Assembly (NCBI RefSeq): GCF_003002825.1
Contig: NZ_PVTE01000010.1
Span: 62,001-126,000, forward strand
Source: Spirosoma oryzae
GTDB lineage: Bacteria; Bacteroidota; Bacteroidia; Cytophagales; Spirosomataceae
Reading direction: 5' to 3'
DNA: 64,000 nt
Positions 1,376 to 17,143 of this stretch are shown in pieces; position 1 is the first letter of the stretch, and each line of letters starts with the position of its first letter. Position numbers and translations under genes: made by a program. The notes under the pieces were generated by a model, which saw only the letters and a list, made by a program, of their open reading frames with translations, made no database searches and was not told the origin of the DNA.

Positions 1376-1454
1376 GTAGAGACGCGACCCTTCGCGTCTC
1401 AGCATGCGTTAGCAAAACCATCCGGCGCTGAGACGCGAAGGGTCGCGTCTCTAC
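1376..1454. repeat. GAGACGC-type inverted repeat, copy 1
   Basis: Arms at 1376-1402 and 1428-1454 are perfect 27-bp reverse complements around a 25-bp spacer. Each arm is itself a small palindrome (GAGACGCGA, CCCT, TCGCGTCTC). The right arm supplies the TAG stop codon of the Ig-like gene (1451-1453). A second copy of the same family with G-to-A changes is at 10532-10628. Confidence 0.9.
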
Positions 1455-3166
1455 TGAAAATCGATATCAGTCAACTCGAAATTCTGTTTGAGGGGTATCA
1501 GGCCGCCCTCCTCGGCACCGGGGTGATAAATAATGGTTTCGGGTTGAATGCCCTTCTGCACATTACCGATGTCGCGTCGTCGGTTGCCGTTGGCGTCGAT
1601 GACCAGCCGAACCCGATAGCGACCGGGTTTCAGTCGGGCAAAGCTGTACGACTTCGTGCCATACGCTGTTCGAATAACGGTATACTTGTCGTCCAGCAAC
1701 TCGACAATAAACTTGTCGTCCGGGCGGTTGACGCGTCCGGCAATCAGGCCGAAGCTCTCGTCATCGGCCAGTCGGTACTTCGAGAAAAAGCGAGGCAAGG
1801 TGTCGCCCTGTACACTGATGAATGAGCCTTTTTCCAGCAACACGACCAGACTATCACGCAGGTTCGTTTTCTGCTTGATGTTCAGCCGGGAATAGCTGTT
1901 GCTCCAGCGCAGCATGCTGGTGTCCAGCTTGATGGGCTTGGTTGTGTCGGGGCCAATAATAATCGATGGGAGCGCGTACCGCAAGACGGGTTTGTTGAAC
2001 GTCAGCGTGAAGTCAAGGTCGTTGTCGATGGGGTCGCCACTCGTGGGCGTTATCTGCACCGCCAACGGTTTACGATCACGGGCGCGGGTCTTCAGCGGTG
2101 AGAAATACACGCGTTCCTTCAAATCCGTGGTATTACCGACGGAGTCGACGGCCGTTATGCCGACGTTGATCGTATCGCCGGCAGCCCGGTTAGCCGGTCG
2201 GTAGATACGAATGAGTTTGGGCGATTCCAGAAACGAAATCAGGCTGTCACTGGCCGTTGTCGATGCGGGTTTCGTCACGCGCAGGGTGTAGCTGGCAATA
2301 CCGCTGCTTAGTTCGAGACCAAGCGTTTCATCGGTACGCTCGCGCCGGCTGACGCGTGGCTTGCCATATCCCCGAAAAGCTACCAGGTCGATACCCGTAT
2401 AATCGCGGGTCAGATTGAGTACACTGTCGCGGAAGGCTACCCGCTCACCCGGCGTGTTGTTGACCAGATTCAGGTCTTTGTCGTCAAACCCGTATACTTT
2501 GTAGCGGCCGGCCCGGACGTTTTCGATGCGGAAGTTGCCGCTACTGTCGGTCCGGTCGAAATACTGCGGCCGTTTGCGATTGATGGGCAGCGTGTCGGTA
2601 GGCGCAAACAGGCCGACCACAAAACCCAGAATCGGCTGGCGGGTTTCATCGTCGATAACCGTTCCCGACAGGTAGAGCGAATCGATTGTCGGGCCGGTGC
2701 TGAACACGATTTTCGCGTCTTTGGCAATGTTGCCTTCCGAGATGTCCTTGATCCCATCCGAAAAATCGATGGTGTAGGTTGTGTTGGGCTGGAAAGGCCG
2801 GGCGAAGGTCAGCCGCACCCCTTCCGGCAGCGATTTGACGATGTACGTGTTGCTGTCCTGGGGGGTAACCGTAATCTTTTGCTGAATATTTTCCGTCTTG
2901 ACGTATTCGTCGAAGTACAACTCTACCGTCTTGCCTTCGTAATTCAACTGCCGCATGGTGGGAACGGTAGCGACGACTTTCGGGGCCAGCGAATCTTTCT
3001 TGCCACCCGGCGGCTGAGCAACCTGTGCGCAGTTCTGAAGCAGGAAAGGAAGCGTTGTCAGAAGAAAAAGAACCAGCCAGCGAAGCGCTCTATGTACGGA
3101 CCCAGCCGTAGAAAAGGGATATGGAATCAGACTTTCGCTCGTTCGCTCTTTCACTCTTTCGCACAT
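1451..3166 (-). CDS. Ig-like (SbsA-type) domain lipoprotein
   Basis: A 571-residue exported protein. A hydrophobic stretch (LVLFLLTTLPFLL) is followed by QNC-AQ, a lipoprotein cleavage site, and then PPGGKKDSLAPKVV, the hallmark start of Bacteroidota lipoproteins with an SbsA-like bacterial Ig domain. The Ig part (about residues 60-160, with VELYFDEYVK) is followed by a carboxypeptidase-regulatory-like segment (about 165-240, GNFRIENVRAGRYKVYGFDD) and further beta-rich modules. The first 15 residues are encoded by a single-armed copy of the GAAAGAG octamer repeat. The start at 3166 is kept because no other Met precedes the signal peptide, but it is uncertain. The role is unknown; a structural or biogenesis role in the outer membrane is inferred. 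Confidence 0.75.
   Translation of the reverse strand: MCERVKERTSESLIPYPFSTAGSVHRALRWLVLFLLTTLPFLLQNCAQVAQPPGGKKDSLAPKVVATVPTMRQLNYEGKTVELYFDEYVKTENIQQKITVTPQDSNTYIVKSLPEGVRLTFARPFQPNTTYTIDFSDGIKDISEGNIAKDAKIVFSTGPTIDSLYLSGTVIDDETRQPILGFVVGLFAPTDTLPINRKRPQYFDRTDSSGNFRIENVRAGRYKVYGFDDKDLNLVNNTPGERVAFRDSVLNLTRDYTGIDLVAFRGYGKPRVSRRERTDETLGLELSSGIASYTLRVTKPASTTASDSLISFLESPKLIRIYRPANRAAGDTINVGITAVDSVGNTTDLKERVYFSPLKTRARDRKPLAVQITPTSGDPIDNDLDFTLTFNKPVLRYALPSIIIGPDTTKPIKLDTSMLRWSNSYSRLNIKQKTNLRDSLVVLLEKGSFISVQGDTLPRFFSKYRLADDESFGLIAGRVNRPDDKFIVELLDDKYTVIRTAYGTKSYSFARLKPGRYRVRLVIDANGNRRRDIGNVQKGIQPETIIYHPGAEEGGLIPLKQNFELTDIDFQ
3131..3162. repeat. GAAAGAG-type octamer repeat, single arm
   Basis: Four degenerate 8-nt units (CTTTCGCT, CGTTCGCT, CTTTCACT, CTTTCGCA) of the same kind as the arms of the hairpin at 4855-4937. 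No complementary arm is seen nearby. It lies inside the annotated 5' end of the Ig-like lipoprotein gene. Confidence 0.7.
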
Positions 3167-3178
3167 TAGTTACGTCTA

Positions 3179-3186
3179 CAAAGGTA
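3179..3186 (-). promoter_or_regulatory. Bacteroidota -7 box TACCTTTG
   Basis: On the minus strand this reads TACCTTTG, an exact match to TAnnTTTG, ending 12 nt before the ATG at 3166. No clear -33 TTG is at the right distance. If used, the leader of the Ig-like gene would be very short. Confidence 0.45.
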
Positions 3187-3275
3187 AACGCCCGTTCATC
3201 GTTAAACCGTACCGGCCGACATAAAATGGGTACCTGCTTCGTTACGTTTACTAGAAATTTAAGAAAATTTAGGCA

Positions 3276-3310
3276 TTGTCGGTAGCCGTGCGGGTAAGCC
3301 GTTAGTTTTG
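3276..3310 (+). promoter_or_regulatory. Candidate promoter of the vWA/tubulin/actin cluster
   Basis: TAGTTTTG at 3303-3310 matches TAnnTTTG. A TTG at 3276-3278 lies 27 bp upstream, the spacing expected between the -33 and -7 elements of Bacteroidota. It would start transcription about 35 nt before the ATG at 3353. Confidence 0.55.
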
Positions 3311-3352
3311 CCAGTACGGAACCTAGTACCAATCCCACCTAATTAGCTACGA

Positions 3353-4864
3353 ATGACCCGTAATTCTGTTTACCTGTCGGCGCTGCTGCTGGCGTCGGTC
3401 TGCACATTGAGTGGCTGCTCCAGTCCCGCCGACGACCTCGATTCGCAGGTGTCCGACGCCCTCAGCGACAACGCCATCGACGTATCGGAAGCCGACGCCC
3501 TGCGCGTGTACATCGGCCGCGAGAACCGCGAACTCGGTAAAGACGACAAAACCAAAGCCATCATTCTACCCGATGGTAAGATCGACGAGTCGGCGCTGCT
3601 GGCGTTCGTCAAGCGCAACCGCACCTACCGAAAGCTGGCCAAAGAAGGGAAGACACCCAGCGTTGCGCTGTCGGGTGGAGCCACTGCCGCCACGAAGCCG
3701 ATCAGCCTGAACCTGTACCTGGAAGCCAGCGGTAGCATGTTTCCCTACGACGCGCCAAGCGGCAACGGAACGTTCAAGCGGACGCTCAACGACCTGCTCA
3801 CCGGCTTCGACGCGACCAACGCCGGGCAGGGGAAAATCTACGTCGTGAATACCGAGGTAAATCCGTTGGGCTTGTCGCTGTCGCAGTTTTTTAAAGAGCG
3901 CAATATTTTCACCGTTGCCAAAACGAAGGGAAAAACGACGAGTACCGACTTCGAGAAGATCTTCAAAACGATACTATCGGAAACGTCGGGGAATAACCTG
4001 AGCGTCCTGGTCTCGGACCTGATTTATTCCGACCCGGCCCTGACGGGCATGAGCGCGCAGAAAACACTCGATGCGGCTAGTTCGCTGCTGACGACGGTAT
4101 TCAATCCCTACGTCAACACCCACTCAATGCTGGTGCTCAAACTCGACGCTGACTTCGACGGTACGTACTACAGCTGGAACAATGTCAAGCGGACGTACAA
4201 GGGGGAGCGGCCCTACTACCTCTGCCTGATTGGTCGCAACGAGGTGATGCAGCAGTTGTACGCCAGCCCGACCTACGCGCAGATTCGGCGGTTCGAGCAA
4301 CTGCCGGGTTTCGCCGACTCGTGGTTCTTCGGGAGAACCGACGGGGCAGCCGCGCCCGCATTTACGGTCCTGGTAAACGACCCCACGAAGAAAGGCCGTT
4401 TCAAACGATCAGCTGACGAAGTACGGGAACGGGCTAAAGTTGTTCATGCCCTGACGGATGTACAGCCCGACGTTGCCGATAAAAACCTGACCATCCCCGT
4501 GGCGGTCGATCTGTCGGCGCTGCACCTGCCTACGTCCGTGCTGACCGATCCCAGCCAGTACGTTGTTGATGGGAAAGATAATTTCAAGGTGACGGCGGTA
4601 CAGCCGTATCAGGGGGCTAACGGCATGACGCACAAGCTGCTGCTGACGTCCGACCGGCCGGCGCGGGGCGACCGCACGGCCAGCATCCGGCTGCGTCGTC
4701 AGTTTCCGCCCCGCTGGATTGCCAACACGACCACGACCAACGATCAACAACCCGACGCGAACTCGACGTTCGGCCTGCAAAACCTGCTTCAGGGCGTCGA
4801 CCGTGCCTACAACCCCAACAACCAACCCGAGTATTTCACGCTAACAATTGAATTGAAAGAGTGA
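3353..4864 (+). CDS. Lipoprotein with a von Willebrand A-like domain (degenerate MIDAS)
   Basis: A 503-residue protein with signal peptide and lipobox LSGC (Cys22). After an acidic helical region, the segment from residue 117 (ISLNLYLEASGSMF) resembles the first strand and MIDAS loop of a vWA domain, with Glu124 where Asp is usual (xASGSM in place of DxSGSM). A second vWA-like strand follows (LSVLVSDLIYS, about residue 215). The C-terminal third is beta-rich. It opens a cluster with a membrane protein, a tubulin-like protein and an actin/Hsp70-like protein, so it is probably the envelope-side partner of that machine. vWA assignment is from pattern only; a profile search on residues 110-340 would decide it. 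Confidence 0.7.
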   Translation: MTRNSVYLSALLLASVCTLSGCSSPADDLDSQVSDALSDNAIDVSEADALRVYIGRENRELGKDDKTKAIILPDGKIDESALLAFVKRNRTYRKLAKEGKTPSVALSGGATAATKPISLNLYLEASGSMFPYDAPSGNGTFKRTLNDLLTGFDATNAGQGKIYVVNTEVNPLGLSLSQFFKERNIFTVAKTKGKTTSTDFEKIFKTILSETSGNNLSVLVSDLIYSDPALTGMSAQKTLDAASSLLTTVFNPYVNTHSMLVLKLDADFDGTYYSWNNVKRTYKGERPYYLCLIGRNEVMQQLYASPTYAQIRRFEQLPGFADSWFFGRTDGAAAPAFTVLVNDPTKKGRFKRSADEVRERAKVVHALTDVQPDVADKNLTIPVAVDLSALHLPTSVLTDPSQYVVDGKDNFKVTAVQPYQGANGMTHKLLLTSDRPARGDRTASIRLRRQFPPRWIANTTTTNDQQPDANSTFGLQNLLQGVDRAYNPNNQPEYFTLTIELKE

Positions 4865-4937
4865 AAGAGCGAATGAGCGAAAGAGTGGCTGCCGCCAGTA
4901 ACTTTCGCTCATTCACTCTTTCGCTCTTTCGCTCTTT
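4855..4937. repeat. Intergenic hairpin built of 8-nt units (GAAAGAGT type)
   Basis: The left arm has units GAAAGAGT, GAAAGAGC, GAATGAGC, GAAAGAGT. The right arm (4901-4937) is made of their reverse complements with two mismatches over about 30 bp. It overlaps the last codons of the vWA-like gene and ends 4 nt before the next start codon. Confidence 0.85.
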
Positions 4938-4941
4938 GACT

Positions 4942-5385
4942 ATGGAAGAATCACTCTATAATTTTTACAACCTGTTTGTTAACAGCAATTTGCTGGAAGA
5001 TCTGTATCAGGAAGAACTGCTGTCGCCGTTGACCTGGACAGCCATCGGGATCGCTTTCGTCGTGGCGTTCGCGTTTTACATCTGGCCATTGAACAAGGTC
5101 AGTTTTAGCGGGATGGGGCACTGGCTGCTCATGATGGGTATCAGCGCCCTGTCGATGTTTGTGATCTCGCTGGTAACGCTCTATCAGAAAGCTGGTCAGG
5201 AAATTCCGCGCGACGAATCGGATCTGGAGCAGGGGAATCTGTTCGACGAGGGCGTTAGTGTATTCCTGAGCTATTCCTTCACGATGGCGCTGCTGGCGGC
5301 CGTCATCTTCTTTATCATCTCACTCATTCTCAAAAATTTCAGCAAAAACGCCAAGCACCGCCCCATGCTCTGGCCTTCGAAATAA
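4942..5385 (+). CDS. Small membrane protein with three predicted spans
   Basis: A 147-residue protein with hydrophobic segments at about residues 28-47 (AIGIAFVVAFAFYIWPL), 52-75 (WLLMMGISALSMFVISLVTLY) and 111-133 (FTMALLAAVIFFIISLIL). The ATG at 4942 is chosen because the frame upstream, back to 4861, is made entirely of repeat arms. No family is recognised. Its place between the vWA-like lipoprotein and the tubulin-like protein suggests an inner-membrane anchor for the complex, which is inference only. Confidence 0.75.
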   Translation: MEESLYNFYNLFVNSNLLEDLYQEELLSPLTWTAIGIAFVVAFAFYIWPLNKVSFSGMGHWLLMMGISALSMFVISLVTLYQKAGQEIPRDESDLEQGNLFDEGVSVFLSYSFTMALLAAVIFFIISLILKNFSKNAKHRPMLWPSK

Positions 5386-5387
5386 GG

Positions 5388-5484
5388 GTATACGGCTTAC
5401 AGTTTTCGGTTTACGGTGCATTGCTTACCGATACTGGCGCTGACAGGAAACTGTAAACCGTATACTGAAAACTGAAAACCGAAC
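5388..5484. repeat. Intergenic hairpin built of 7-nt units (GTTTACG type)
   Basis: Left arm units: GTATACG, GCTTACA, GTTTTCG, GTTTACG. Right arm units: GAAACTG, TAAACCG, TATACTG, AAAACTG, AAAACCG. It begins 2 nt after the membrane-protein stop codon and ends 2 nt before the tubulin-like start. Confidence 0.9.
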
Positions 5485-5486
5485 TT

Positions 5487-6977
5487 ATGGCTAAACTATT
5501 TGTCTTTGCGATTGGCGGAACGGGGTCGCGGGTGCTGAAGTCGCTGACGATGCTGCTGGCGTCGGGCGTCACGCTCAGGAATACCGACGAGGTGATCCCG
5601 ATCGTACTCGACCCGCACGCGACGAACGATGATCTGCTGCGAACGAAAGAATTGCTGCGCGAATACGGCAACATTCGGGCAGGGTTGCAAACCAAGCCGT
5701 CGTCAGGCTTCTTTGGTACCGAAATCAAAACGCTGAACCGGTCGATCGGCGGTAACGCGACCATTGCCGACACCTACGTGTTCGAGTTGCAGGGTGTTCA
5801 GCAGGAGAAATTCCGCGACTATATCAACTACGAAGGACTCGATACGCCAAGTAAGGCTTTTGCCAGTCTGTTGTTTTCGGAGGAGAATCTGGAAACCAAG
5901 ATGGACATTGGCTTCGTCGGCAATCCGAATATTGGCAGCACGGTGCTCAATCAGTTCCGGTATTCCGACGTGTTCCAGGCGTTTGCGGAGAATTTCGGAG
6001 CCAACGACCGCATCTTCATCGTCAGTTCGATCTTCGGCGGGACGGGGGCGGCAGGCTTCCCGATTCTGCTGAAAAATATCCGGGGGGCGCAGGCCATCGG
6101 GCAGATTCCGAACCCGGCTTTCCTGCGCGATGCCAAAATCGGGGCCGTGACGGTGATGCCGTATTTCAGCCTGACAACGAACGATAACAAGCTGATCGAC
6201 CCGGCTTCGTTCATAGCTAAAACCAAGGCGGCACTCAACTACTACCAGAAAGGAGTCAACCCGTCGGTGAATGCGCTGTACTACATCGGCGACGATCAGA
6301 CGAAGGCATACACCTACGACCCCGGCGCGGGTGGGCAGAAAAATGAAGCCCACTTCGTTGAACTGGCGTCGGCGCTGGCGATTGTCGACTTCATGAACAT
6401 TGACGACAGTAGCCTGAGCGTGTCGAACGGTCGGCCGACGAGCCCGGTTTACAAGGAGTTTGGCGTGGAGCAGGACGGTACGACGCTGCAACTGGGTAAT
6501 CTGGCCAGTGCCACGAAGGAGCAGATCAATCTGCCCCTGACGAAAATGGCGCTGTTCAGTACGTACCTCAGTCAGCGAATCAAGGCAGCGGCCGGTACCG
6601 TGCAGTGGGCCAAGGCGAACCCGCCCATTTCGAGTTCGTTCCTGAATTCCGGTTTTTTCAACAGCGTCAAAAATTTCGACATCGGCTTCCGGCAGTGGTT
6701 GTCGGAGATGGGGGCCAACAAACGCGCCTTCGATCCGTTCGTGCTCGACGCGGGCAATCTGGGGCATACCGTCCGGGGTTTCGAACCCAAAAAGCGCGGC
6801 CTGTTCGGTGGAGAGTCCGACGTCAAGCTCGACATTGTCGACGACTTCGATCAGACGCTTAACAAGACAGCCGAGGGGAAAGCGTACCCCAGCGAACCCG
6901 ATAAATTCGTCCAACTGTTCTCGGAAGGTACCGAGCGTTTCGCCCGCGAACGACTCCCCAAGGTGCTGGATTACTAA
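5487..6977 (+). CDS. Tubulin/FtsZ-superfamily protein
   Basis: A 496-residue cytosolic protein. The N-terminus (VFAIGGTGSRV, residues 6-16) matches the first nucleotide-binding loop of tubulin/FtsZ proteins. Residues 177-195 (FIVSSIFGGTGAAGFPILL) match the tubulin signature loop GGTG(S/A)G, preceded by a hydrophobic strand as in FtsZ. I do not find a clear NxDxxD/E catalytic T7 motif, so GTP hydrolysis through polymer contacts is unproven. It is not FtsZ: it is longer, divergent and outside a division cluster. The next gene encodes an actin/Hsp70-type ATPase, a rare pairing. Related families are the Pfam tubulin-like groups; which one needs a profile search. Confidence 0.8.
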   Translation: MAKLFVFAIGGTGSRVLKSLTMLLASGVTLRNTDEVIPIVLDPHATNDDLLRTKELLREYGNIRAGLQTKPSSGFFGTEIKTLNRSIGGNATIADTYVFELQGVQQEKFRDYINYEGLDTPSKAFASLLFSEENLETKMDIGFVGNPNIGSTVLNQFRYSDVFQAFAENFGANDRIFIVSSIFGGTGAAGFPILLKNIRGAQAIGQIPNPAFLRDAKIGAVTVMPYFSLTTNDNKLIDPASFIAKTKAALNYYQKGVNPSVNALYYIGDDQTKAYTYDPGAGGQKNEAHFVELASALAIVDFMNIDDSSLSVSNGRPTSPVYKEFGVEQDGTTLQLGNLASATKEQINLPLTKMALFSTYLSQRIKAAAGTVQWAKANPPISSSFLNSGFFNSVKNFDIGFRQWLSEMGANKRAFDPFVLDAGNLGHTVRGFEPKKRGLFGGESDVKLDIVDDFDQTLNKTAEGKAYPSEPDKFVQLFSEGTERFARERLPKVLDY

Positions 6978-6981
6978 ATCA

Positions 6982-7088
6982 GTTTGTGGTTTACGGTATT
7001 CAGTTTACGGTTTGTAGCCTGCGCCAACTGACGTATGCCTCCCACCGCAAACCGAATACTAAAAACCGTATCCCGAAAACTGTACACC
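6982..7088. repeat. Intergenic hairpin built of 7-nt units (GTTTACG type)
   Basis: Left units: GTTTGTG, GTTTACG, GTATTCA, GTTTACG, GTTTGTA. Right units: CGCAAAC, CGAATAC, TAAAAAC, CGTATCC, CGAAAAC, TGTACAC. The right arm also encodes a false 20-residue extension ahead of the ATG at 7095. Confidence 0.9.
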
Positions 7089-7094
7089 GACATT

Positions 7095-10000
7095 ATGCCC
7101 ACAACATTCAGCTTACATAACCCGACGCCGGGGCTGCACTGGTACGTCAGCAAACCGCTCGGTACGGATCAGATTGCCGCCATCCGCGACCCGCAGGGCG
7201 GACAGACCGTCAAGCAGCCGACGTCGATACCGAGTCCGTTTGCGCGCATCGACCTGGTGCGGTCGGCCTTTCTGAACCTGGCCCTGCGTCCCGACCTTAA
7301 CGGCACAATCAACGATCAGCGTGTTGTCTCCGATGCGCTCGACGTAGGTGAACTGTTTTTCAACTACGACAAGCTCAAAACCTACGTCACGATTACGCCC
7401 TTCGACGTACGCACCGACCTCGACCGGCTGCGAAGCTCGATGAACACGGGGCACCGGCGGCTGGGCGATGCGCTTAAACTGTTTCTCGATCAGGACGCTG
7501 CCGAGTATAACTTCAACGAGATCAACCGGTTGTTTATCCTCAGCTATCGGGGCCGTGTGGTCGGTGGTACGTCGCCCAAGACGCTGTTTTTCAGTGGTGG
7601 AAATGATCTGAGCTGGGTCGATGTATCCATTGGTAACGACCGGTTGTTCGATCCGTCGACAACACCGCTGTACCAGCGTGATATCGAGTATCAGAAATTC
7701 TGGTACGCCATCAAACTGTTCATGCCCAACTTCCGGGAGCGGTTCCGGGAAGTGGACGATTACCTGAACCGGAGTCGGACGCTGCTGCAACAGCAGAATC
7801 CGACGCTGTTCTACCAGCACATTGAAGCGCAGAACGGGCAATCGCTGCTGACCCGCGAACAGTTCGATAACGAATTCGAAGAGCTGATGACCGGCCCCGG
7901 TGACATCGTCGAGGTGTTGGGCTTTCCGCTGCGCAAGAAAAAGTCGGACTCGCGGGCTATCAGTCAGGTCAGTGATTTTATCATCAAGTCTGACAAGTAC
8001 AACCGGATTTACGGCAGCAGTCTGCCGCGCCCGATGGTCTTGCAGAACCGCTTTTTTCGGCAGTTTACCTACGTGCCGCAGGCGCAGTGGAACCCCAACA
8101 CGCCCGTGCCGTACTATGTCCGGGAATCGTGGCGCGACAACCAGCGGTCATTACCCGGTCAGCCCGGCAACTACCCCTGGCTGACGGTCAGCGACTTTCT
8201 GGAGCCGTACCTGATTCGGTTGCCGTACCCCACCGACCGGGGGCGCTTCTACGACGGAAATCTGCAAACGCCCGCCACTGACAAAGGCTTTCTGATTCCG
8301 CTGAAACGCGACTTCTTCGATTTCTTCGATGTCGACGATCTGTTGACGGGACGCGTGCGATTGAAGATGGTCCCGCAGGGCAGCGGCATTCAGGTCTCGC
8401 TCGACATTCCTGTTACGGCACCCGGTCAGCCCGGCAACCAGTTTGTGACGTTCGAGCGTCAGTACAGCCCCGCCATTGGGCAGTCGGCCGCGCCAAACGA
8501 AACAACCAATGAGGGCATTATTCTCGAAAACTCGTTCACTGTCAATGTCTATCCATTCGTGCGGTCTGGCTCGGTTACTGTTCCGGCCGACTACCGCGTG
8601 CAGTTGATCGAATCGGGCTTCGACAGCCAGAATCAGTACAAGCTGACCTACTACAAGCAGCAGGATAACGCGGACGTGGTGCCCGAATCGACGCATCAGC
8701 GTACGGTCCGGCAGCAAAACACCGACGGGTCGAGCGTGTACGACGTGCTTCGGCAGGAGTTCGATTACATGCAGACCAACATCCGGGCCGACGGGCGGGA
8801 ACTGAACGGATTGCTCATTCCCCGCTGGCAACTCTACAACGGCGGCAGTAAGCAGTTCGCCTTCTCGGTCGATTTCGGTACGACCAACACGCACATCGAA
8901 TACAGTGTCGACGGTGGGACGCCCCGGCCGTTCGACGTTGCGGAGATTACGCCACAGGTCGCGACGCTGGTGGCCCCGGCGCAGTACAACCCGGCCCTGT
9001 TTGAGCTGTTTCTGCTGTACGATCTGGAGTTTGTGCCGCCCACGATTGGCCCCGGCAAACCCGATAGTTTCCCAACGCGTACGGCTATTGCCGAGCCGCT
9101 GAACCTGAGCTTTAACCAGCAGACGCAGGCCCTGGCCGACTTCAATATTCCGTTCTACGTCGAGCGGCAACCGGCCGGGTCGAACCGTATCACGACGAAC
9201 CTGAAATGGGCCAAGAACAACGATCAGACCGAACGGCGGGTCGAGGCTTTTCTGGAAGAACTGCTGATGCTGATCAAAAACAAGGTGCTGACCGAAGGGG
9301 GCAACCTGTCGCAGACGACTGTGTTCTGGTTTTTCCCGGCCAGTATGACGCCCGGCCGCGTCAGTCAGCTCCGGGCCGACTGGCAAACCCTCTATGACCG
9401 CTACATCGGCGGAGCACCGGGGCGACTACGCGAAGTATCGGAGTCGGTCGCACCGTTTTACTATTACAAGCAGAACCCTACGCTCAGCGCGTCGGCCCGG
9501 CCGGTTATTAACGTCGACATCGGCGGGGGAACGTCGGATGTGGTGGTCTACGAACGCAACGAACCGCGTCTGCTGACGTCGTTCCGCTTTGCCGGTAACG
9601 CCATCTACGGCGATGCCTTTAGCGAATACGGAGCTGCCAGTCATAACGGCTTCGTTCGCAAATACGCCGATCGGATACAGACGCTGCTCGATAGTCAAAG
9701 CCTGGGTAACCTAAGCGATAACAATCGCCGGATGCTTGACACCAACCGGTCGGAGGATATTCTGGCGTTCTGGTTCTCGATTGAGAAGAGCAATGACGTG
9801 AAGGCGAAGAACATGCTGTCGTTCAACGGCATGCTGGCCAAGGACGAGGACCTGAAGGTGGTGTTCGTGCTGTTCTACACCGCGCTGATTTACCACATCG
9901 CGCAGTTGATGAAGCATAAGGGAATCGGGTTGCCGGGGGCCATCACGTTCAGCGGTACCGGCTCGAAACTGCTCACCATCATCAGTACCGACGATCAGAT

Positions 10001-10532
10001 GCTGGGCAAACTGGCCCGGATCATTTTCGAGAAGGTGTACGAACAAACCTACGACGCCAGCGGCCTGACGCTTTTCTACGAACGGAAAGGGCCGAAGGAA
10101 GTGACTTGCAAAGGGGCGCTGATGCAGCCGACCAACAGCCGTCCGGTCGATACTGAAGCGATCAGCTATGTGTATCCGGCCACCTTCCAGGATGAGTATT
10201 CGGCGCTGACCTATGCTGATCTGCGGAAACCGGAGGTGACGAACTCGCTCCTGAAAGAAACCGCTGCGTTCATCGACTTTTTCTTTGCGCTAAATCAGGA
10301 GTTCAGTTTTGCCCGGAATCTGAACGTATCGGCCCGGTCACTGGCGATTGCGCAACAGGAACTACGGACGCATCTGGACACGTCGCTCATGGATGGTATT
10401 CAACGGAAAGAAAACGAAGTAGCGGCTGAATTCAGCGGTATGGCCGATGCGCTGTCGTCACCCATCGAGGAAACGCTGTTTTTCTACCCGCTGATCGGCG
10501 CGATCAATAAACTGGCTAATGCGCTGGCATAG
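7095..10532 (+). CDS. Large protein with an actin/Hsp70-type (ASKHA) ATPase core
   Basis: A 1145-residue protein. The first ~585 residues show no domain I recognise. Then come the landmarks of the actin/Hsp70/sugar-kinase fold in order: phosphate-1 loop SVDFGTTNTH (about 591-600), phosphate-2 loop NVDIGGGTSDVVVY (about 806-819) and the adenosine-type motif ITFSGTGSK (about 950-958). The last ~150 residues are helical. The ATG at 7095 is preferred to an upstream in-frame ATG at 7035, whose 20 codons lie within a repeat arm. No signal peptide, so cytosolic. Together with the tubulin-like gene this points to a nucleotide-driven assembly or chaperone module. Distant relation to SrfB-type Hsp70-like proteins is possible but not shown. 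Confidence 0.8.
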   Translation: MPTTFSLHNPTPGLHWYVSKPLGTDQIAAIRDPQGGQTVKQPTSIPSPFARIDLVRSAFLNLALRPDLNGTINDQRVVSDALDVGELFFNYDKLKTYVTITPFDVRTDLDRLRSSMNTGHRRLGDALKLFLDQDAAEYNFNEINRLFILSYRGRVVGGTSPKTLFFSGGNDLSWVDVSIGNDRLFDPSTTPLYQRDIEYQKFWYAIKLFMPNFRERFREVDDYLNRSRTLLQQQNPTLFYQHIEAQNGQSLLTREQFDNEFEELMTGPGDIVEVLGFPLRKKKSDSRAISQVSDFIIKSDKYNRIYGSSLPRPMVLQNRFFRQFTYVPQAQWNPNTPVPYYVRESWRDNQRSLPGQPGNYPWLTVSDFLEPYLIRLPYPTDRGRFYDGNLQTPATDKGFLIPLKRDFFDFFDVDDLLTGRVRLKMVPQGSGIQVSLDIPVTAPGQPGNQFVTFERQYSPAIGQSAAPNETTNEGIILENSFTVNVYPFVRSGSVTVPADYRVQLIESGFDSQNQYKLTYYKQQDNADVVPESTHQRTVRQQNTDGSSVYDVLRQEFDYMQTNIRADGRELNGLLIPRWQLYNGGSKQFAFSVDFGTTNTHIEYSVDGGTPRPFDVAEITPQVATLVAPAQYNPALFELFLLYDLEFVPPTIGPGKPDSFPTRTAIAEPLNLSFNQQTQALADFNIPFYVERQPAGSNRITTNLKWAKNNDQTERRVEAFLEELLMLIKNKVLTEGGNLSQTTVFWFFPASMTPGRVSQLRADWQTLYDRYIGGAPGRLREVSESVAPFYYYKQNPTLSASARPVINVDIGGGTSDVVVYERNEPRLLTSFRFAGNAIYGDAFSEYGAASHNGFVRKYADRIQTLLDSQSLGNLSDNNRRMLDTNRSEDILAFWFSIEKSNDVKAKNMLSFNGMLAKDEDLKVVFVLFYTALIYHIAQLMKHKGIGLPGAITFSGTGSKLLTIISTDDQMLGKLARIIFEKVYEQTYDASGLTLFYERKGPKEVTCKGALMQPTNSRPVDTEAISYVYPATFQDEYSALTYADLRKPEVTNSLLKETAAFIDFFFALNQEFSFARNLNVSARSLAIAQQELRTHLDTSLMDGIQRKENEVAAEFSGMADALSSPIEETLFFYPLIGAINKLANALA

Positions 10533-10628
10533 TAGAGACGCAACCCTTTGCGTCTCACTGACCGGATGGTGTCGCCTGCCGGATGGTGTTGCTGACGCGT
10601 GCTGAGACGCAAGGGGTTGCGTCTCTAC
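10532..10628. repeat. GAGACGC-type inverted repeat, copy 2
   Basis: Arms at 10532-10557 and 10603-10628 pair over 26 bp with one mismatch, each arm again being a small palindrome (GAGACGCAA, CCCT, TTGCGTCTC). It starts on the last base of the stop codon of the ATPase gene. Same family as 1376-1454. Confidence 0.9.
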
Positions 10629-10647
10629 ATAAAAAAACAATGGCTGT

Positions 10648-12039
10648 ATGCGAACAAACATTCTTTTCCTGACCCTGCTGGTCGGGGTTGGGACAGTACC
10701 AGCGATAGGCCAAACCGCCAACGATAACCAGGCGGCTGTCGATACGCTGACGAAGGAAGTGGCTAAAGCTGTCTTCAGGACGATCGATCAGCCAAAAGCA
10801 CAGGCCATCTACGCCCAGTTGTTGACCTGTGACGACGGCTGTGATGCCCGCGATATCATCCGAACGGTGGGCAGCTGGGATCAGGTAGGGCAGCGCATCG
10901 AAGAACTGGCTACGCTGAAGAATACGAAGAATTTCGTGAGCATGAGTCCCGCCGATGCCAATGTGGCCATTCGGCAGCAACTGGCGCAGTTCTACCAGAA
11001 GAACCGGGCCTACGCCAGTTATGCCAAGGCGCTGCCACCCGCAGTGCAACAGGGCATTTTGGCCAAGATCGACGCGATGCTGCCGCCCAACGCAACGGCG
11101 TCGACGGACGACGTACCACCCAGTGATGATCCGGCGGTAGAAGATGCCGACGCCCAGTCACCAGGTATTACAGGCGGTGCTGCTGAAGGCGACAACATCT
11201 CAGGGTCGGCGCTGCAACTAAGCAAACTGGAACGGGGTCTTAACGACGCAAAAGACAAACAGATGTGGCTATTGCTTGGGGGCTTACTGGCAGGTTTGAT
11301 CGTTGGCGCTGGCGGCATGTGGGCATTAGCCAGAAAGCAGCGAAACAACGATGCTGACGATTACCAGCGGCAGATTGAGCGGCTAGCTGCTCAACTGGAT
11401 AGCGAAAGCCGAAAAGCGAAGGCGGCAACGAGCACTCCGGCCAAGCCGACACCCGTCCAGGCAACGGAGACCGAGCGCGTAACGCCCAAACCTGCACCAG
11501 CTCCAACGCCAGCTACTGCACCGCCGGTTTCTACCGACTCCACGACGGTCGCGGAGTCGGCTACGGTTGAGCCAGCCGTTGGGCCGTCGAAACCAATACG
11601 AACGGGCGATATCAGCACGAGCAGCGAACCAGCACCTGTGACTGTCGTACCGGAATCGTCCGGGCAGGTGCAGTCGCAGGGGAGTGGGCCGATTGCTACG
11701 CCTACACCACCCCGTAGTCAGGTGTTTTACTGTCCGCCCCCCGATCCGAGTGGTCAGTTCGACCCCAGTCAGCAGACCGACATGCTATCACCCGAATCCG
11801 CTTATCGCTTCAGTGTCGATGCGACCCAGCCCACTACGGCAACCTTCCGGTTTGAAGCCGAGCCGGGTCGGCTAGCCCGCCTGTTGACTTATCGTAATTA
11901 CATGATCGAGCCGGCCTGCGAGAGCGAGAACACTTACGCGAACGGACACACGCGTGTGGCCATGCGTCGCGATGGCGTAGCCGTACAGGAAAATGGCGTC
12001 TGGCGAGTCAAGACAAAGGCGCTGATCCGCTATGAATAA
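10648..12039 (+). CDS. Exported single-span protein with coiled coil and Pro/Thr-rich linker
   Basis: A 463-residue protein with signal peptide (MRTNILFLTLLVGVG, probable cleavage after AIGQ), a helical domain (about 25-150), a transmembrane segment (about 205-226, LLLGGLLAGLIVGAGGMWAL), a short charged coiled coil (about 232-255), a Pro/Thr/Ala-rich linker (about 260-350) and a compact C-terminal domain (about 350-463, starting VFYCPPPDPSG). The topology puts the helical domain in the periplasm and the C-terminal domain in the cytosol. The linker and domain style matches the WG-repeat protein at 13382, which suggests the two are built to the same plan. Family unknown. Confidence 0.75.
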   Translation: MRTNILFLTLLVGVGTVPAIGQTANDNQAAVDTLTKEVAKAVFRTIDQPKAQAIYAQLLTCDDGCDARDIIRTVGSWDQVGQRIEELATLKNTKNFVSMSPADANVAIRQQLAQFYQKNRAYASYAKALPPAVQQGILAKIDAMLPPNATASTDDVPPSDDPAVEDADAQSPGITGGAAEGDNISGSALQLSKLERGLNDAKDKQMWLLLGGLLAGLIVGAGGMWALARKQRNNDADDYQRQIERLAAQLDSESRKAKAATSTPAKPTPVQATETERVTPKPAPAPTPATAPPVSTDSTTVAESATVEPAVGPSKPIRTGDISTSSEPAPVTVVPESSGQVQSQGSGPIATPTPPRSQVFYCPPPDPSGQFDPSQQTDMLSPESAYRFSVDATQPTTATFRFEAEPGRLARLLTYRNYMIEPACESENTYANGHTRVAMRRDGVAVQENGVWRVKTKALIRYE

Positions 12040-12040
12040 C

Positions 12041-12120
12041 GGTTTATGGTATTCAGTCTACGGTTGACGGTCGTCAGCATGCGATAGCCGCCGTCAACCG
12101 TCAACCGAATACCGTAAACC
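12041..12120. repeat. Intergenic hairpin built of 7-nt units (GTTTACG type)
   Basis: Left units: GTTTATG, GTATTCA, GTCTACG, GTTGACG, GTCGTCA. Right units: CGTCAAC, CGTCAAC, CGAATAC, CGTAAAC. It sits between two converging genes, starting 1 nt after one stop codon and abutting the other. Confidence 0.9.
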
Positions 12121-12678
12121 CTAATTGATTAAACAGCCGACTGGCGTTGTGCGGGGTATGGCGACGGGCTGATTCGTCAGCGTTGCATCGATCGCATCAC
12201 GGAGATAGAAAGCCGTGGGAGCCGGTCGGGCGCGGCCAAGGCGGTAGAACTGATCGTCGACACTGCCCTGATAAAGAACCTTTCCATCGGCCGACAACAG
12301 AACCACCTCGGGCGTTGTCGTGACGCGGTATCGCTTGACCAGCTTATGGCGTGGGTCGAGCTGGTAGGGCAGGCGTAGCGAGTAGGCTGTTGCGAACGCC
12401 TGTGCTTCTGCCTGCGTTACCGTTTCGGCTGGAAACACGGCCTCGAAGCGTACCTGACCCGCATACGTGTCTGCTAACTGCTGCGTCCGTCCCGTCGTTT
12501 TCTGGCAAATCGGACATTCCGTTTCCAGAAAAATAAGCACTCGCAGTGGGGCTGCATCCGGCTTTGGTCGGGCCGATACAAACAGAAGACTAAGTGCAAT
12601 CAGATTCAGCCAGGTGGCCCAGGGTCGTTTAAACGTCAGCCGCCTTTTTCGATCTACGGTACAGGTCGATGGAAGCAT
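12121..12678 (-). CDS. Thioredoxin-fold protein with a CPIC motif
   Basis: About 185 residues: an N-terminal hydrophobic segment (LNLIALSLLFVSA), then a thioredoxin-like domain beginning PLRVLIFLETECPICQKT. CPIC has the spacing of a redox-active CxxC, and VTTTPEVVLLSADGKVLYQG supplies the cis-Pro strand and the following beta hairpin. It resembles AhpC/TSA- or TlpA-like envelope redoxins. The first in-frame ATG is at 12694-12696; the one at 12676-12678 is preferred only slightly. It is the sole minus-strand gene among the plus-strand cluster and may be an unrelated insertion. Confidence 0.75.
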   Translation of the reverse strand: MLPSTCTVDRKRRLTFKRPWATWLNLIALSLLFVSARPKPDAAPLRVLIFLETECPICQKTTGRTQQLADTYAGQVRFEAVFPAETVTQAEAQAFATAYSLRLPYQLDPRHKLVKRYRVTTTPEVVLLSADGKVLYQGSVDDQFYRLGRARPAPTAFYLRDAIDATLTNQPVAIPRTTPVGCLIN

Positions 12679-12725
12679 GTGTAACGGGTAATCCATTTAC
12701 CAAACTACGAACAACGAACGAAATT

Positions 12726-13292
12726 ATGCCAACAGGAACGCGATACATCGTCTGGTTTTGCCTGCTCGTACTGAGTCAGCTGGCGGGCTGCTCCGGCTGT
12801 TCGCGTTCGGGTAGCCATCAGCCACGACGGACAAAACGAAAGCCAGCTCCGGATACGGTCAGCACCCGGACGACGGCTCCGCCGGTATTGAAACAGATCG
12901 GCGATGGCCCCACGGAAGTGGCGATGGAAAAGCGAAACGGCGTCTACGTTGTCCCCGTCACGATCAACGGGCAACCGATGCACTTCATTCTCGATACGGG
13001 GGCCAGCCTGATTTCCATGTCGACGACGGAAGCTGAAACCTTATTCAAACAGGGAACGATCACGAGCCGTGATATTATCGGGCAGTCACGATTTCAGGAT
13101 GCCAACGGCGATATTTCCCCCGGTTCTATCGTTCGGCTGCGTTCCGTTCAGATCGGTGACCGGGTGCTGGAGAATGTCAGCGCCAATGTGGTTGGCAATA
13201 CGAAAGCCCCACTACTGCTGGGGCAGTCGGCGCTGTCGAAGTTCGGACGGATTTCGCTCGATTATCGGCGGAACATCGTGACGTTTGACTGA
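12726..13292 (+). CDS. Retropepsin-like aspartic protease, lipoprotein
   Basis: A 188-residue protein with signal peptide and lipobox LAGC (Cys22), a basic/Pro-rich linker, then a single aspartyl-protease lobe. FILDTGAS (catalytic Asp90) and the downstream LLLGQSALSKFGRISLD strand are the usual pattern of bacterial retropepsin-like (gag-asp) enzymes, which work as dimers. The ATG at 12726 is chosen since it directly precedes the signal peptide; the frame extends 19 codons further without a plausible leader. It should act at the envelope. A substrate among neighbouring envelope proteins is possible but not shown. Confidence 0.85.
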   Translation: MPTGTRYIVWFCLLVLSQLAGCSGCSRSGSHQPRRTKRKPAPDTVSTRTTAPPVLKQIGDGPTEVAMEKRNGVYVVPVTINGQPMHFILDTGASLISMSTTEAETLFKQGTITSRDIIGQSRFQDANGDISPGSIVRLRSVQIGDRVLENVSANVVGNTKAPLLLGQSALSKFGRISLDYRRNIVTFD

Positions 13293-13381
13293 CGTTGGGT
13301 GTTTTGCTGGTATAGGCCGAACTTTGCCGTCATCACTAGTGCAAATTACCCAACGGGTCGGCTCGTTGGCCCCACTCAATC

Positions 13382-14776
13382 ATGACCGAAACGGAACTCA
13401 CCGACCGACTGCGTGAACAGCTTATACTGAACGGACCCGATGCGTGGCAGACGGGCGATTACCCATACCAGGCCGCTCAACTGGGCCTGTCGGATGAAGA
13501 CGCCCGGAAGCGGGCAATGGTTGTGCGCGACGAGGTGCTGGCCAACAGCCTGCTGCTGGATCAGATTCGGGCCCGTATCGCGCGGCTGATCGAACCGTCG
13601 CGGGTACACCTCTACGAGCAGGATCTGAGCAAGATCATCAATGCCGCCGGCTCGCTGGGTCTCTCCCCCGATTTTGTCCGTTCGCGCTGGATTCCGGCCG
13701 AGAAGGCGCGTCTGATGCCAACCCCGCCGGTTCAGCCACCTATGGACATGGTGCAACCGACACCTGAACCGCGCGTTGTCGACGAACCGGTCAAGCCCGT
13801 TGTCGTACCGCCCGTGGTAGTTCTCCCTCCCGTTGAGGAGCCGCCAGCGCCCGTCGTTGTTCCCGAGCCAGTTATCACGCGGTCCGAGCCGGTTTTGCCG
13901 CCGGAGCCAGCGCCGATATCCCGTCGGGAACCCGAACCCACTGTCGGCCCCCCGCCGGTCGTTCGTTCGTTCACGGCTACGCCGGCCCGCGTGAAGCGGG
14001 GGCAACCGGTAACGCTCGACTGGGATGTTGTCAATGTGCTGGCCGTCACGATCGATGACCTGGGCGAAGGACTTTCACCGAAAAATCGCGGCTGGGTGAA
14101 ACCGTCCAAATCGACTGATTATACCTTGTTCGATGCCAACAACAATCCGCTCAGCACGGTGCGTGTCGAGGTGATAAAGCCGGATAGAAGTGGCCTCTAC
14201 GGTGTGCTGTTCGCCCTGGCACTACTGGTGATTATCTACTGGTTTGTCCGATCGAGCAACACGCGGCAACCGCCCAAACGGGAAGAAACGCGGCAGGAAG
14301 AAACCCTGAACCGGCAACTGCCCTACACCGAGCGTGAACCGGTGACATCCGCTGCTGATGAGCCGGTACCCGCCAGTACGGATACGGTGGCCACGTCTGT
14401 TGCGGAAGCACCTGTAGCAACCGAAGCCAGCCCGGAAAAAACGACGAAGGAGTCGGAACCCGCCGTCGAGCAGACTACCGATACGCGGACAGCCTCGACT
14501 GATAACACACCGACTACCCCCAGCGACGCCCGGCAGGGACGCTACGAAGAATCGTTTGGTAACAGCCCGTACGACAAAGTGGAGTTGGGTGTCGACGATC
14601 ACGGCTGGCGTCGGGCCCGCAAAAATGGCCGGTGGGGGTACATCGATCAGCACGACAACTGGGTTATCGAGCCCCGCTTCGAAGCCATCACGCCCTTCCG
14701 CAACGACATCGCATCGGCTTTCCTCGACGGTCAACTGCTAAAAATCGACCGCTCGGGCGAGCCTGTTCGTCCCTGA
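13382..14776 (+). CDS. Single-span protein with Ig-like domain and WG repeat
   Basis: A 464-residue protein without a signal peptide. Order: helical N-terminal domain (1-115), Pro/Val-rich linker (120-195), Ig-like domain (200-268, FTATPARVKRGQPVTLDWDV), transmembrane span (about 272-292, GVLFALALLVIIYWFV), Thr/Glu-rich linker, and one WG-type repeat near residues 416-440 (GRWGYIDQHDNWVIEPRF). It ends 7 bp before the convergent gene at 14784. It shares layout with the protein at 10648, so I treat it as the distal part of the tubulin/actin cluster. Confidence 0.75.
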   Translation: MTETELTDRLREQLILNGPDAWQTGDYPYQAAQLGLSDEDARKRAMVVRDEVLANSLLLDQIRARIARLIEPSRVHLYEQDLSKIINAAGSLGLSPDFVRSRWIPAEKARLMPTPPVQPPMDMVQPTPEPRVVDEPVKPVVVPPVVVLPPVEEPPAPVVVPEPVITRSEPVLPPEPAPISRREPEPTVGPPPVVRSFTATPARVKRGQPVTLDWDVVNVLAVTIDDLGEGLSPKNRGWVKPSKSTDYTLFDANNNPLSTVRVEVIKPDRSGLYGVLFALALLVIIYWFVRSSNTRQPPKREETRQEETLNRQLPYTEREPVTSAADEPVPASTDTVATSVAEAPVATEASPEKTTKESEPAVEQTTDTRTASTDNTPTTPSDARQGRYEESFGNSPYDKVELGVDDHGWRRARKNGRWGYIDQHDNWVIEPRFEAITPFRNDIASAFLDGQLLKIDRSGEPVRP

Positions 14777-14783
14777 AAATCCC

Positions 14784-15689
14784 TCACCGATCGATCCAGT
14801 CGTCGGGGCCGAGTGTGACAAGTAACTTCTGGAAGGATGTCCAGTCGCCCGAACTTGTCACGCCAATGCGATTGCCGGGCAAGGGCTCGAACACGAATGG
14901 ACTGCCCCGCACCTCCCGCTGATTGATGTACACATGCAACGCTTTCTCGACGCGCCGGATTACCAGCTGATTCCGGTTTGGCTCGACAGGTACGCCCGGT
15001 CGAAAGAAATCGTCGGTCATTACCGAATCGGTAGCCTGCCCGTCAATCAGTCGGGTGAGCGCCATCGTGCCGTCGCTGCGCAGGCGGAAGGCGCACAGAT
15101 TCAGCGAGTCACGAACCCCGAATAGTAGCCCACCCGACGGTACCCGGCCCGAATCCGCCACCACGTCGATTCGGATCGTGAAATAGGGGGCCAGGTTGAG
15201 GTTCATCTCCGTGGGTAGCGGCACGACGCTGTAGGCTACTTCGCCGGGTGCCGGGCTTAGTCGCCGGATGTTGTACTTGCCGAAGCCAATCTGATAGTGG
15301 TAACCGCCCTTCCGGCCACCGCGCCAGCCACTGCGGTTCGTGGCAAAGTCGCCCGAGAAGGCAGGGCGGTAGCTCTGGGGCCGTGCTGGCACGCGCCCGA
15401 TTGCCGGTGCCGGACGGGTTGGCAGCGTCGATGCGGTAGGCGCGGAAGCGGGTACTGTAACTGTAGCAACAGCCGTAGTGGGTGCTGGTGTTGGCCGGGT
15501 TGGGTTAGGAACGTTGGTCGGGGCGGGGGAGGCATGCGTCGCATGTCGGGACAGCGATACCTGTTGCCACTCGCTGCTGGTCGATTCGGTTTCTTCTACG
15601 GTTTGCGTGGAGTCCGGCTGCGTTTGCGCGTAGCTTACCACCGAACCAACTAGTCCGGATAAAAGCACGAAAACAGCCAGATAGCGCAT
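14784..15689 (-). CDS. Exported protein with a laminin G/concanavalin-like domain
   Basis: A 301-residue protein with a signal peptide (MRYLAVFVLLSGLVGSVVSYAQ), a Thr/Pro/Ala-rich linker (about 30-105) and a beta-sandwich-like domain (about 108-301). Elements such as YFTIRIDVVADSG, GGLLFGVRDSLN, RNQLVIRRVEKALHVYIN and GNRIGVTSSG are typical of LamG or DUF1080-type jelly rolls that bind glycans or stand as structural modules. No catalytic residues are evident. It is third in a tight minus-strand operon (12-bp gap). Confidence 0.65.
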   Translation of the reverse strand: MRYLAVFVLLSGLVGSVVSYAQTQPDSTQTVEETESTSSEWQQVSLSRHATHASPAPTNVPNPTRPTPAPTTAVATVTVPASAPTASTLPTRPAPAIGRVPARPQSYRPAFSGDFATNRSGWRGGRKGGYHYQIGFGKYNIRRLSPAPGEVAYSVVPLPTEMNLNLAPYFTIRIDVVADSGRVPSGGLLFGVRDSLNLCAFRLRSDGTMALTRLIDGQATDSVMTDDFFRPGVPVEPNRNQLVIRRVEKALHVYINQREVRGSPFVFEPLPGNRIGVTSSGDWTSFQKLLVTLGPDDWIDR

Positions 15690-17000: not shown

Positions 17001-17143
17001 TGGGGAGGATCGGATCGTTATGTAGGCGATGCCAGCGCGAGGTGCGGCCCGAATACGACCCCGTTACCCGCTGATTTTGCCCGAAAGCAGTAATTTTTTG
17101 TAAATTTAATGGTTTGACGGTCACACCTCCGTGCCACCCCACT

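Follow-up and report, generated by a model that had tools for sequence, protein, structure and literature searches.

A tubulin-fold and an actin-fold protein encoded with envelope proteins in Spirosoma oryzae: a candidate trans-envelope NTPase machine

The window analysed here is a stretch of 64,000 nucleotides from Spirosoma oryzae (NZ_PVTE01000010.1, positions 62,001 to 126,000 of the forward strand). Near its start lie five adjacent genes (3353-12039), here called VWA, MEM, TUB, ASK and SPT, and with modest confidence we read them as encoding one trans-envelope NTPase machine. We do so because of the predicted folds of TUB and ASK, the co-occurrence of the genes, an order kept across phyla, co-variation, and the divergence of the five genes as a block. 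A larger claim, which we advance only tentatively, is that the machine belongs to an undescribed class, in which an obligate tubulin-fold GTPase and a giant actin-fold ATPase form a mixed cytoskeletal engine linked to a vWA lipoprotein, with a ZorAB-type proton motor driving or gating the fuller form and whole versions being swapped by lineages as under an arms race. Of cytoskeletal NTPases there are two great families, the tubulin-fold and the actin-fold proteins. If the claim is true, a co-varying tubulin/actin cassette that diverges or is swapped as a block and has a phage-defence-type proton motor would connect cytoskeleton, envelope mechanics and immunity. With the cassette, the predicted FtsZl1-vWA operons also gain a clear relative in environmental Bacteroidota that can be cultured (Spirosoma, Pedobacter).

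The two NTPase-like proteins

An earlier note on this DNA, made from the letters and their open reading frames (ORFs), had placed a tubulin/FtsZ-superfamily protein beside a 1145-residue protein with three actin/Hsp70 loops. Both descriptions are borne out by conserved loops and by predicted structures, in which both folds are seen. In TUB, the GGxG and GGTG loops are kept in all 37 alignment rows, well above chance: G10, G11, G13, G184, G185, T186 and G187 occur in every row and T12 in 36. The structure model and its structure matches predict a tubulin/FtsZ fold. By this fold and its nucleotide loops TUB is placed in the tubulin/FtsZ superfamily and is a predicted GTPase. Its Pfam scores are sub-threshold (Tubulin, E 0.0058; Tubulin_2, E 0.0067), with 16.2 bits against a cut-off of 27 for Tubulin_2 (PF13809). 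That cut-off is passed by a cyanobacterial relative (L225, 40.8) and one from the Cytophagales (L042, 28.1), and missed by two others (L217, 19.8; L218, 21.7). The model contains no helix longer than 23 residues, and no extended coiled coil or alpha-helical C-terminal domain of the FtsZl1 type. TUB is not the division FtsZ, since canonical FtsZ is encoded by a separate gene (G000, contig C6).

ASK is predicted, again by model and structure matches, to have an actin/MreB/Hsp70 fold. The actin-fold domain covers residues 586-1017 and follows an N-terminal part of about 585 residues. The DFGT motif (D593-T596), the first D, first two G and last D of DIGGGTSD (D808, G810, G811, D815), and S953 with G954 are all found in 37 of 37 rows. 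With an actin-type predicted fold and the phosphate 1, phosphate 2 and adenosine loops, ASK is placed among the ASKHA proteins and is a predicted ATPase. Its best Pfam match, FtsA (E 0.0033), is sub-threshold. The SrfB model (PF07520) gave no match to the window ASK at E ≤1 and none in 99 genomes, the positive-control genomes being silent too. TUB and ASK, the two proteins compared with PHROGs, had no match there, and none of the five core genes has a curated family in Pfam, NCBIfam or PADLOC.

The envelope partners

The operon-like layout and the membrane partners proposed earlier are also supported. The lipid-anchor cysteine of VWA, Cys22, is kept in at least 90% of 48 alignment rows, and 49 of the 77 family members show the strict lipobox pattern. 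The residues of the metal-ion-dependent adhesion site (MIDAS) variant are nearly invariant (E124 and S126 in 47 of 48 rows, S128 and D222 in 48). The VWA profile aligns with that of VWA_2 so that the two MIDAS sites coincide (E 0.0013, with a probability of only 18%), and searches of Pfam and of PDB profiles gave no match. The vWA label reflects the motif variant ExSxS and this weak profile match. MEM has three hydrophobic segments, and its relatives are 147 residues long. SPT has hydrophobic segments at residues 3 and 206; its C-terminal domain probably faces the cytoplasm.

Co-occurrence, gene order and co-variation

The core genes recur together in other genomes, and neither this nor the structure models, the two checks by which the earlier note could have been refuted, went against it. 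In 395 Bacteroidota genomes drawn across the phylum (profile matches at E ≤1e-6), ASK was found in 11 and TUB in 13, and all 11 ASK genomes have TUB. Two TUB genomes had no ASK in that survey. One (G339) has an ASK-like gene directly 3′ of TUB (E 3e-17 within the locus); the other (G445) has none in the stretch fetched and a trace elsewhere (E 3.4e-4). Among 59 relative genomes, TUB is present in 40, comprising all 36 of the genus (S. oryzae included) and four of the 23 others. The combination had been called rare, which describes the phylum sample well but not the genus.

Gene order was followed in 80 loci, the best 80 of at least 561 relatives from a pattern scan of a species-genome collection. 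Of the 75 loci with enough sequence, 73 have ASK no more than 1.5 kb downstream of TUB, and the two exceptions (L065, L066) have it farther downstream. VWA lies upstream of TUB in 65 of 67 loci, MEM upstream in 61 of 67, and SPT downstream in 60 of 64. In one genome (G040, locus L032) TUB, ASK and a ZorB-like gene are kept at three chromosomal places across about 1.9 Mb. Pairwise distances of TUB and ASK are closely correlated (rho 0.85; 0.26-0.50 for the 14 other pairs among VWA, MEM, TUB, ASK, MotA-like and MotB-like proteins, SPT being left out), figures that serve as a comparison and not as a test, the points being non-independent and the faster genes saturating.

Some loci have features of their own. 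A divergent TUB-ASK pair (L218, G240:C4, 2172-11172) has stress genes of the TerD type nearby (a scanned one matches TerD at E 1.4e-70, and two others were judged by eye), its other neighbours being different. A zinc-ribbon protein occurs in 15 of 64 loci; many of the Prevotella/Hoylesella loci (L093-L126) carry such a protein, with a single transmembrane (TM) segment, after SPT and have no motor pair. In Spirosoma telluris (L059 / L043) the reading frames of VWA, TUB and ASK are broken up, each into two or three ORFs, likely through assembly errors.

Probable exchange of the cassette as a block

Within Spirosoma, TUB falls into two types. In 29 of the 36 genomes (one with a split TUB) it is 87-100% identical to that of the window (type A), and in the other seven 39-40% (type B). 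The neighbourhoods of 16 type A stretches (two genomes being represented twice) and seven type B stretches indicate one shared site: all 16 type A and all seven type B stretches have the gene big5lp upstream, while f15 lies downstream in ten of the former and all seven of the latter, some type A loci having different genes there. Mean identities from six type A and five type B loci (in the order within A, within B, between) are 75, 75 and 28% for VWA, 84, 80 and 27% for MEM, 91, 85 and 38% for TUB, 90, 81 and 32% for ASK, and 58, 62 and 26% for SPT. The flanks give 76, 83 and 76% (big5lp), 55, 62 and 54% (f15) and 56, 65 and 57% (f16). The gene for a WG-repeat protein downstream is intermediate (62, 65 and 47%). 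Thus the unit that differs as a block is VWA to SPT. The flanks do not differ in this way. Replacement is the simplest reading, and the big5lp tree is compatible with one such event or with two. A second cassette, 52% identical and followed by motor genes, lies elsewhere in one genome (G024).

Motor genes, plasmids and viral contigs

Of 64 loci with enough sequence, 27 have genes for a MotA-like and a MotB-like protein after the cassette, and four have the MotA-like gene alone. The MotB-like family has an invariant Asp where the TM segment starts. It matches 8vvn_B, which is MotB-related (E 1.9e-11), and 8qyd_F (E 1.5e-8); the latter is titled only 'membrane protein' and occurs also in 8qyh, whose chain A is named ZorA. 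PADLOC ZorB models match all three members tested (E 1.8e-27 for L217, 1.1e-13 and 4.6e-12). The MotA-like proteins are less clear. ZorA models match two of three tested (E 1.2e-8 for L217, 1.8e-4), the best member reaches 22.3 bits against the MotA_ExbB Pfam cut-off of 22.9, and the family profile finds mostly coiled coils in the PDB, with a weak match to ZorA (E 0.15). These proteins extend a median of 300 residues past the last TM segment (33 proteins, range 6-370). The ZorB-like profile matches three of the 59 relatives, and all three have TUB and ASK. The motor may have been lost in Spirosoma.

The cassette is also carried on cyanobacterial plasmids. Those of Picosynechococcus PCC 8807 and Synechococcus NIES-970 have the order VWA, three-TM protein, TUB, ASK, SPT-type protein; the mobilizable plasmid of Gloeothece PCC 7822 encodes a small protein with four predicted TM segments. 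Computed over the six or seven proteins that each locus encodes, the E-values range from 4e-7 to 8e-13 (VWA), 5e-45 to 2e-48 (TUB), 1e-23 to 2e-32 (ASK) and 4e-6 to 2e-9 (first SPT-type protein). VWA-MEM-TUB-ASK is found on three IMG/VR contigs as well, followed by SPT in one and by the motor pair in two. On one of these contigs (L230, 815-10040) a tail-fibre-type gene is located some 1 kb away from the cassette, and a fragment of a DNA methyltransferase gene separates the two; the setting is either phage cargo or a host flank. A search of 50,697 phage records gave no TUB match at E ≤1e-5.

Relation to known systems

No description of the five-gene cassette or of its ZorAB-like extension, and no described system matching the cassette, was found in searches of an open-access library, subscription papers and supplements lying outside that coverage. 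Among the closest known systems are the operons of FtsZl1 (Tubulin_2, PF13809) with vWA and OmpA proteins, for which a membrane-remodelling role was predicted in 2010 (Makarova and Koonin, PMC2875224). We file the cassette with them, given that TUB is distantly related to Tubulin_2 and has a neighbour of vWA type. In common with those operons, as the main text of that paper describes them, a divergent FtsZ-superfamily protein is linked here to TM proteins, to a putative vWA-type protein and, in many loci related to ours, to an OmpA-type domain on the ZorB-like protein. Unlike those operons, the window has an adjacent giant actin-fold partner and no P-loop GTPase among ten scanned proteins, and its TUB is about half the size of the 1051-residue type protein and has no long coiled coil. 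Hsp70, MotA and ExbB are not mentioned in the main text (PMC2875224); the supplementary families A1-A2 and B1-B9 might include ASK.

Tubulin and HSP70 themes have also been described in GAP1-N2 GTPase-centric conflict systems (Kaur et al. 2020, PMC7159879). As there, tubulin-fold, HSP70-fold and vWA proteins occur here in membrane-proximal operons, and one passage of that paper has GTPases combined with tubulin homologs plus an HSP70 protein. In its section 29, the two themes are non-overlapping, both are built around a GTPase and GAP1, and the tubulin theme is confined to Firmicutes and Actinobacteria. By contrast with that account, the tubulin-fold and actin/Hsp70-fold genes here are adjacent, and they occur in Bacteroidota and cyanobacteria. 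A search for a TRAFAC-type GTPase with GAP1 found no GTPase among the ten window proteins (1451-15689), to which the scan was confined.

The motor proteins beside related cassettes resemble ZorB and, less well, ZorA of Zorya (8qyd/8qyh; PADLOC), whereas no Zorya gene was found among the seven window proteins compared with PADLOC. In motor-coupled force transducers, too, vWA-type envelope proteins are encoded beside TolQ-like proton motors; those proteins have an inner-membrane tether and are presumed to bind the motor (PMC12204202). Unlike these, VWA is a lipoprotein with tubulin-fold and actin-fold cytoplasmic partners; the word 'tubulin' occurs 0 times in the main text of that paper.

A proposed mechanism and its alternatives

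On the cytoplasmic face of the inner membrane, TUB and ASK may be obligate partners in one complex, whether filament, ring or switch, that GTP and ATP control. The complex would be tethered through the three-TM MEM and the cytoplasmic tail of SPT, and the vWA-like lipoprotein, facing the periplasm or the outer membrane, would act as the end that senses or binds a ligand. In the wider system proton force would probably be coupled across the envelope to the TUB-ASK engine, because many relatives encode a ZorA/ZorB-like stator with an OmpA-like domain in the same gene run. The motor-less Spirosoma version would be run by nucleotide turnover alone or by another motor. The idea of a structure spanning the envelope, already raised in the earlier note, is therefore plausible and is strengthened by the ZorA/ZorB-like genes of related loci, but assembly, a filament and chaperone activity are conjecture.

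Several points weigh against this one-machine reading. Nucleotide hydrolysis is a prediction and polymerisation a conjecture. The structure matches of TUB mostly cover residues 1-358 and barely test the remainder. The TUB family profile, run against the PDB, returned noise only, with no tubulin or FtsZ at E ≤1, and comparison with the FtsZ profile was weak (E 0.053, probability 1%), so that the homology is argued from the model, the loops and the sub-threshold Pfam matches. The vWA fold is a label drawn from sequence. A complete motor pair is lacking in 37 of 64 loci, a profile search of the S. oryzae genome gave no ZorB-like match, and the best ZorA matches fall mainly within the coiled-coil tail, a region that coiled-coil models of unrelated proteins match about equally well. 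On the plasmids, MEM was recognised by position and TM count alone, and in Gloeothece PCC 7822 VWA is on the opposite strand. Finally, the 80 loci lean towards the query, having been collected through TUB as the best of a larger set.

The main rival is a Zorya-like conflict system, directed against phage or other attack on the envelope, which we regard as possible if somewhat doubtful. The motor or, in Spirosoma, VWA would sense envelope perturbation, and assembly of TUB and ASK would then seal, remodel or arrest the cell, taking the place of a nuclease effector. The ZorA/ZorB-like pairs, the patchy distribution of TUB across the phylum, the cyanobacterial plasmids, the viral contigs and the replacement at one site are all consistent with it, and tubulin/vWA operons have been counted among conflict systems (Kaur et al. 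2020, PMC7159879, in the sections cited above). Against it, TUB is present throughout the genus, unlike a typical defence gene, and is without a match in the phage records. At a threshold of E 0.001 none of the seven plus-strand window proteins matches a PADLOC model, be it ZorA, ZorB, ZorC/ZorD, ZorE or a type III effector; the nearest is RexB, for MEM, at E 0.0082. The ten scanned proteins include no nuclease or TIR domain. In related loci the effector search covered three L225 proteins and the motor proteins. The earlier view that a defence role is not supported is right in that no effector was found, but it is too firm given the ZorAB-like motor, plasmid carriage and block exchange. A 'defence island' reading in Spirosoma is not favoured, the site being shared.

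It is unlikely, in our judgement, that the cassette is a biogenesis or chaperone machine in which Hsp70-like ASK and TUB, as a scaffold GTPase, assemble or export VWA and envelope proteins with no filament involved. What makes such a role possible is that ASK resembles DnaK almost as closely as it does MreB. Against it, Hsp70 carries its substrate-binding domain at the C-terminal end, whereas in ASK the large extra part precedes the ATPase domain; moreover, no DnaJ or GrpE was found among the ten scanned proteins, the scan having been of the window and not of neighbours in other genomes. That the genes are merely adjacent, with separate roles for TUB and ASK, is already disfavoured and highly improbable. 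In its favour, big5lp, f15, f16 and largely the WG-repeat gene do not travel with the core, but the kept order, the block divergence, the TUB-ASK correlation and the presence of TUB in every ASK genome argue against it for the core itself.

Locus layout and neighbouring genes

The features of the locus are collected in Table 1. The seven genes named in the earlier note are real plus-strand ORFs; a minus-strand ORF between SPT and ASP was not mentioned there. The ORF of ASK opens at 7035, and the start suggested by relatives gives the length of that note. Only ASP and the WG-repeat protein, among the seven, pass a Pfam cut-off.

Table 1. Genes of the cassette and its downstream neighbours (window positions)
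Feature	Position	Strand	Description
VWA, core gene 1	3353..4864	+	lipoprotein, lipobox LSGC, Cys22; vWA-like MIDAS variant ExSxS
MEM, core gene 2	4942..5385	+	three-TM membrane protein; ORF opens 4861, start ~4942 from relatives
TUB, core gene 3	5487..6977	+	predicted tubulin/FtsZ fold, GTPase-like, 496 aa
ASK, core gene 4	7095..10532	+	giant protein, predicted actin/MreB/Hsp70 fold, ATPase-like, 1145 aa; start ~7095 from relatives
SPT, core gene 5	10648..12039	+	signal peptide, one TM, low-complexity linker, C-terminal domain
Thioredoxin-like ORF	12121..12696	-	Thioredoxin_8, E 1.7e-7 (Pfam)
ASP	12726..13292	+	retropepsin-like (gag-asp) lipoprotein aspartic protease; PF13975, E 1.9e-18; ORF opens 12669, start probably ~12726
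WG-repeat protein	13382..14776	+	single-span protein; WG_beta_rep, E 2.6e-9 (Pfam)

The partner set proposed earlier stands for VWA, MEM and SPT; the WG-repeat protein and, in part, ASP fall outside the block-exchanged unit. ASP is a recurrent accessory gene, which 20 of 64 loci have at a distance of no more than 9.5 kb from TUB. Counted with no limit of distance, it occurs in 12 loci with a MotA-like gene and in nine without; it was not found in the seven Spirosoma type B loci. The thioredoxin-like ORF is probably not part of the system, and in one locus (L044) SPT adjoins the protease with no such ORF between them. The WG-repeat protein has one TM segment, a middle part that looks Ig-like by eye, and moderate conservation across both cassette types; it may be a partner specific to the site. 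Farther downstream, at 17114-20851, the window encodes a large sensor hybrid histidine kinase, judging the translation by eye.

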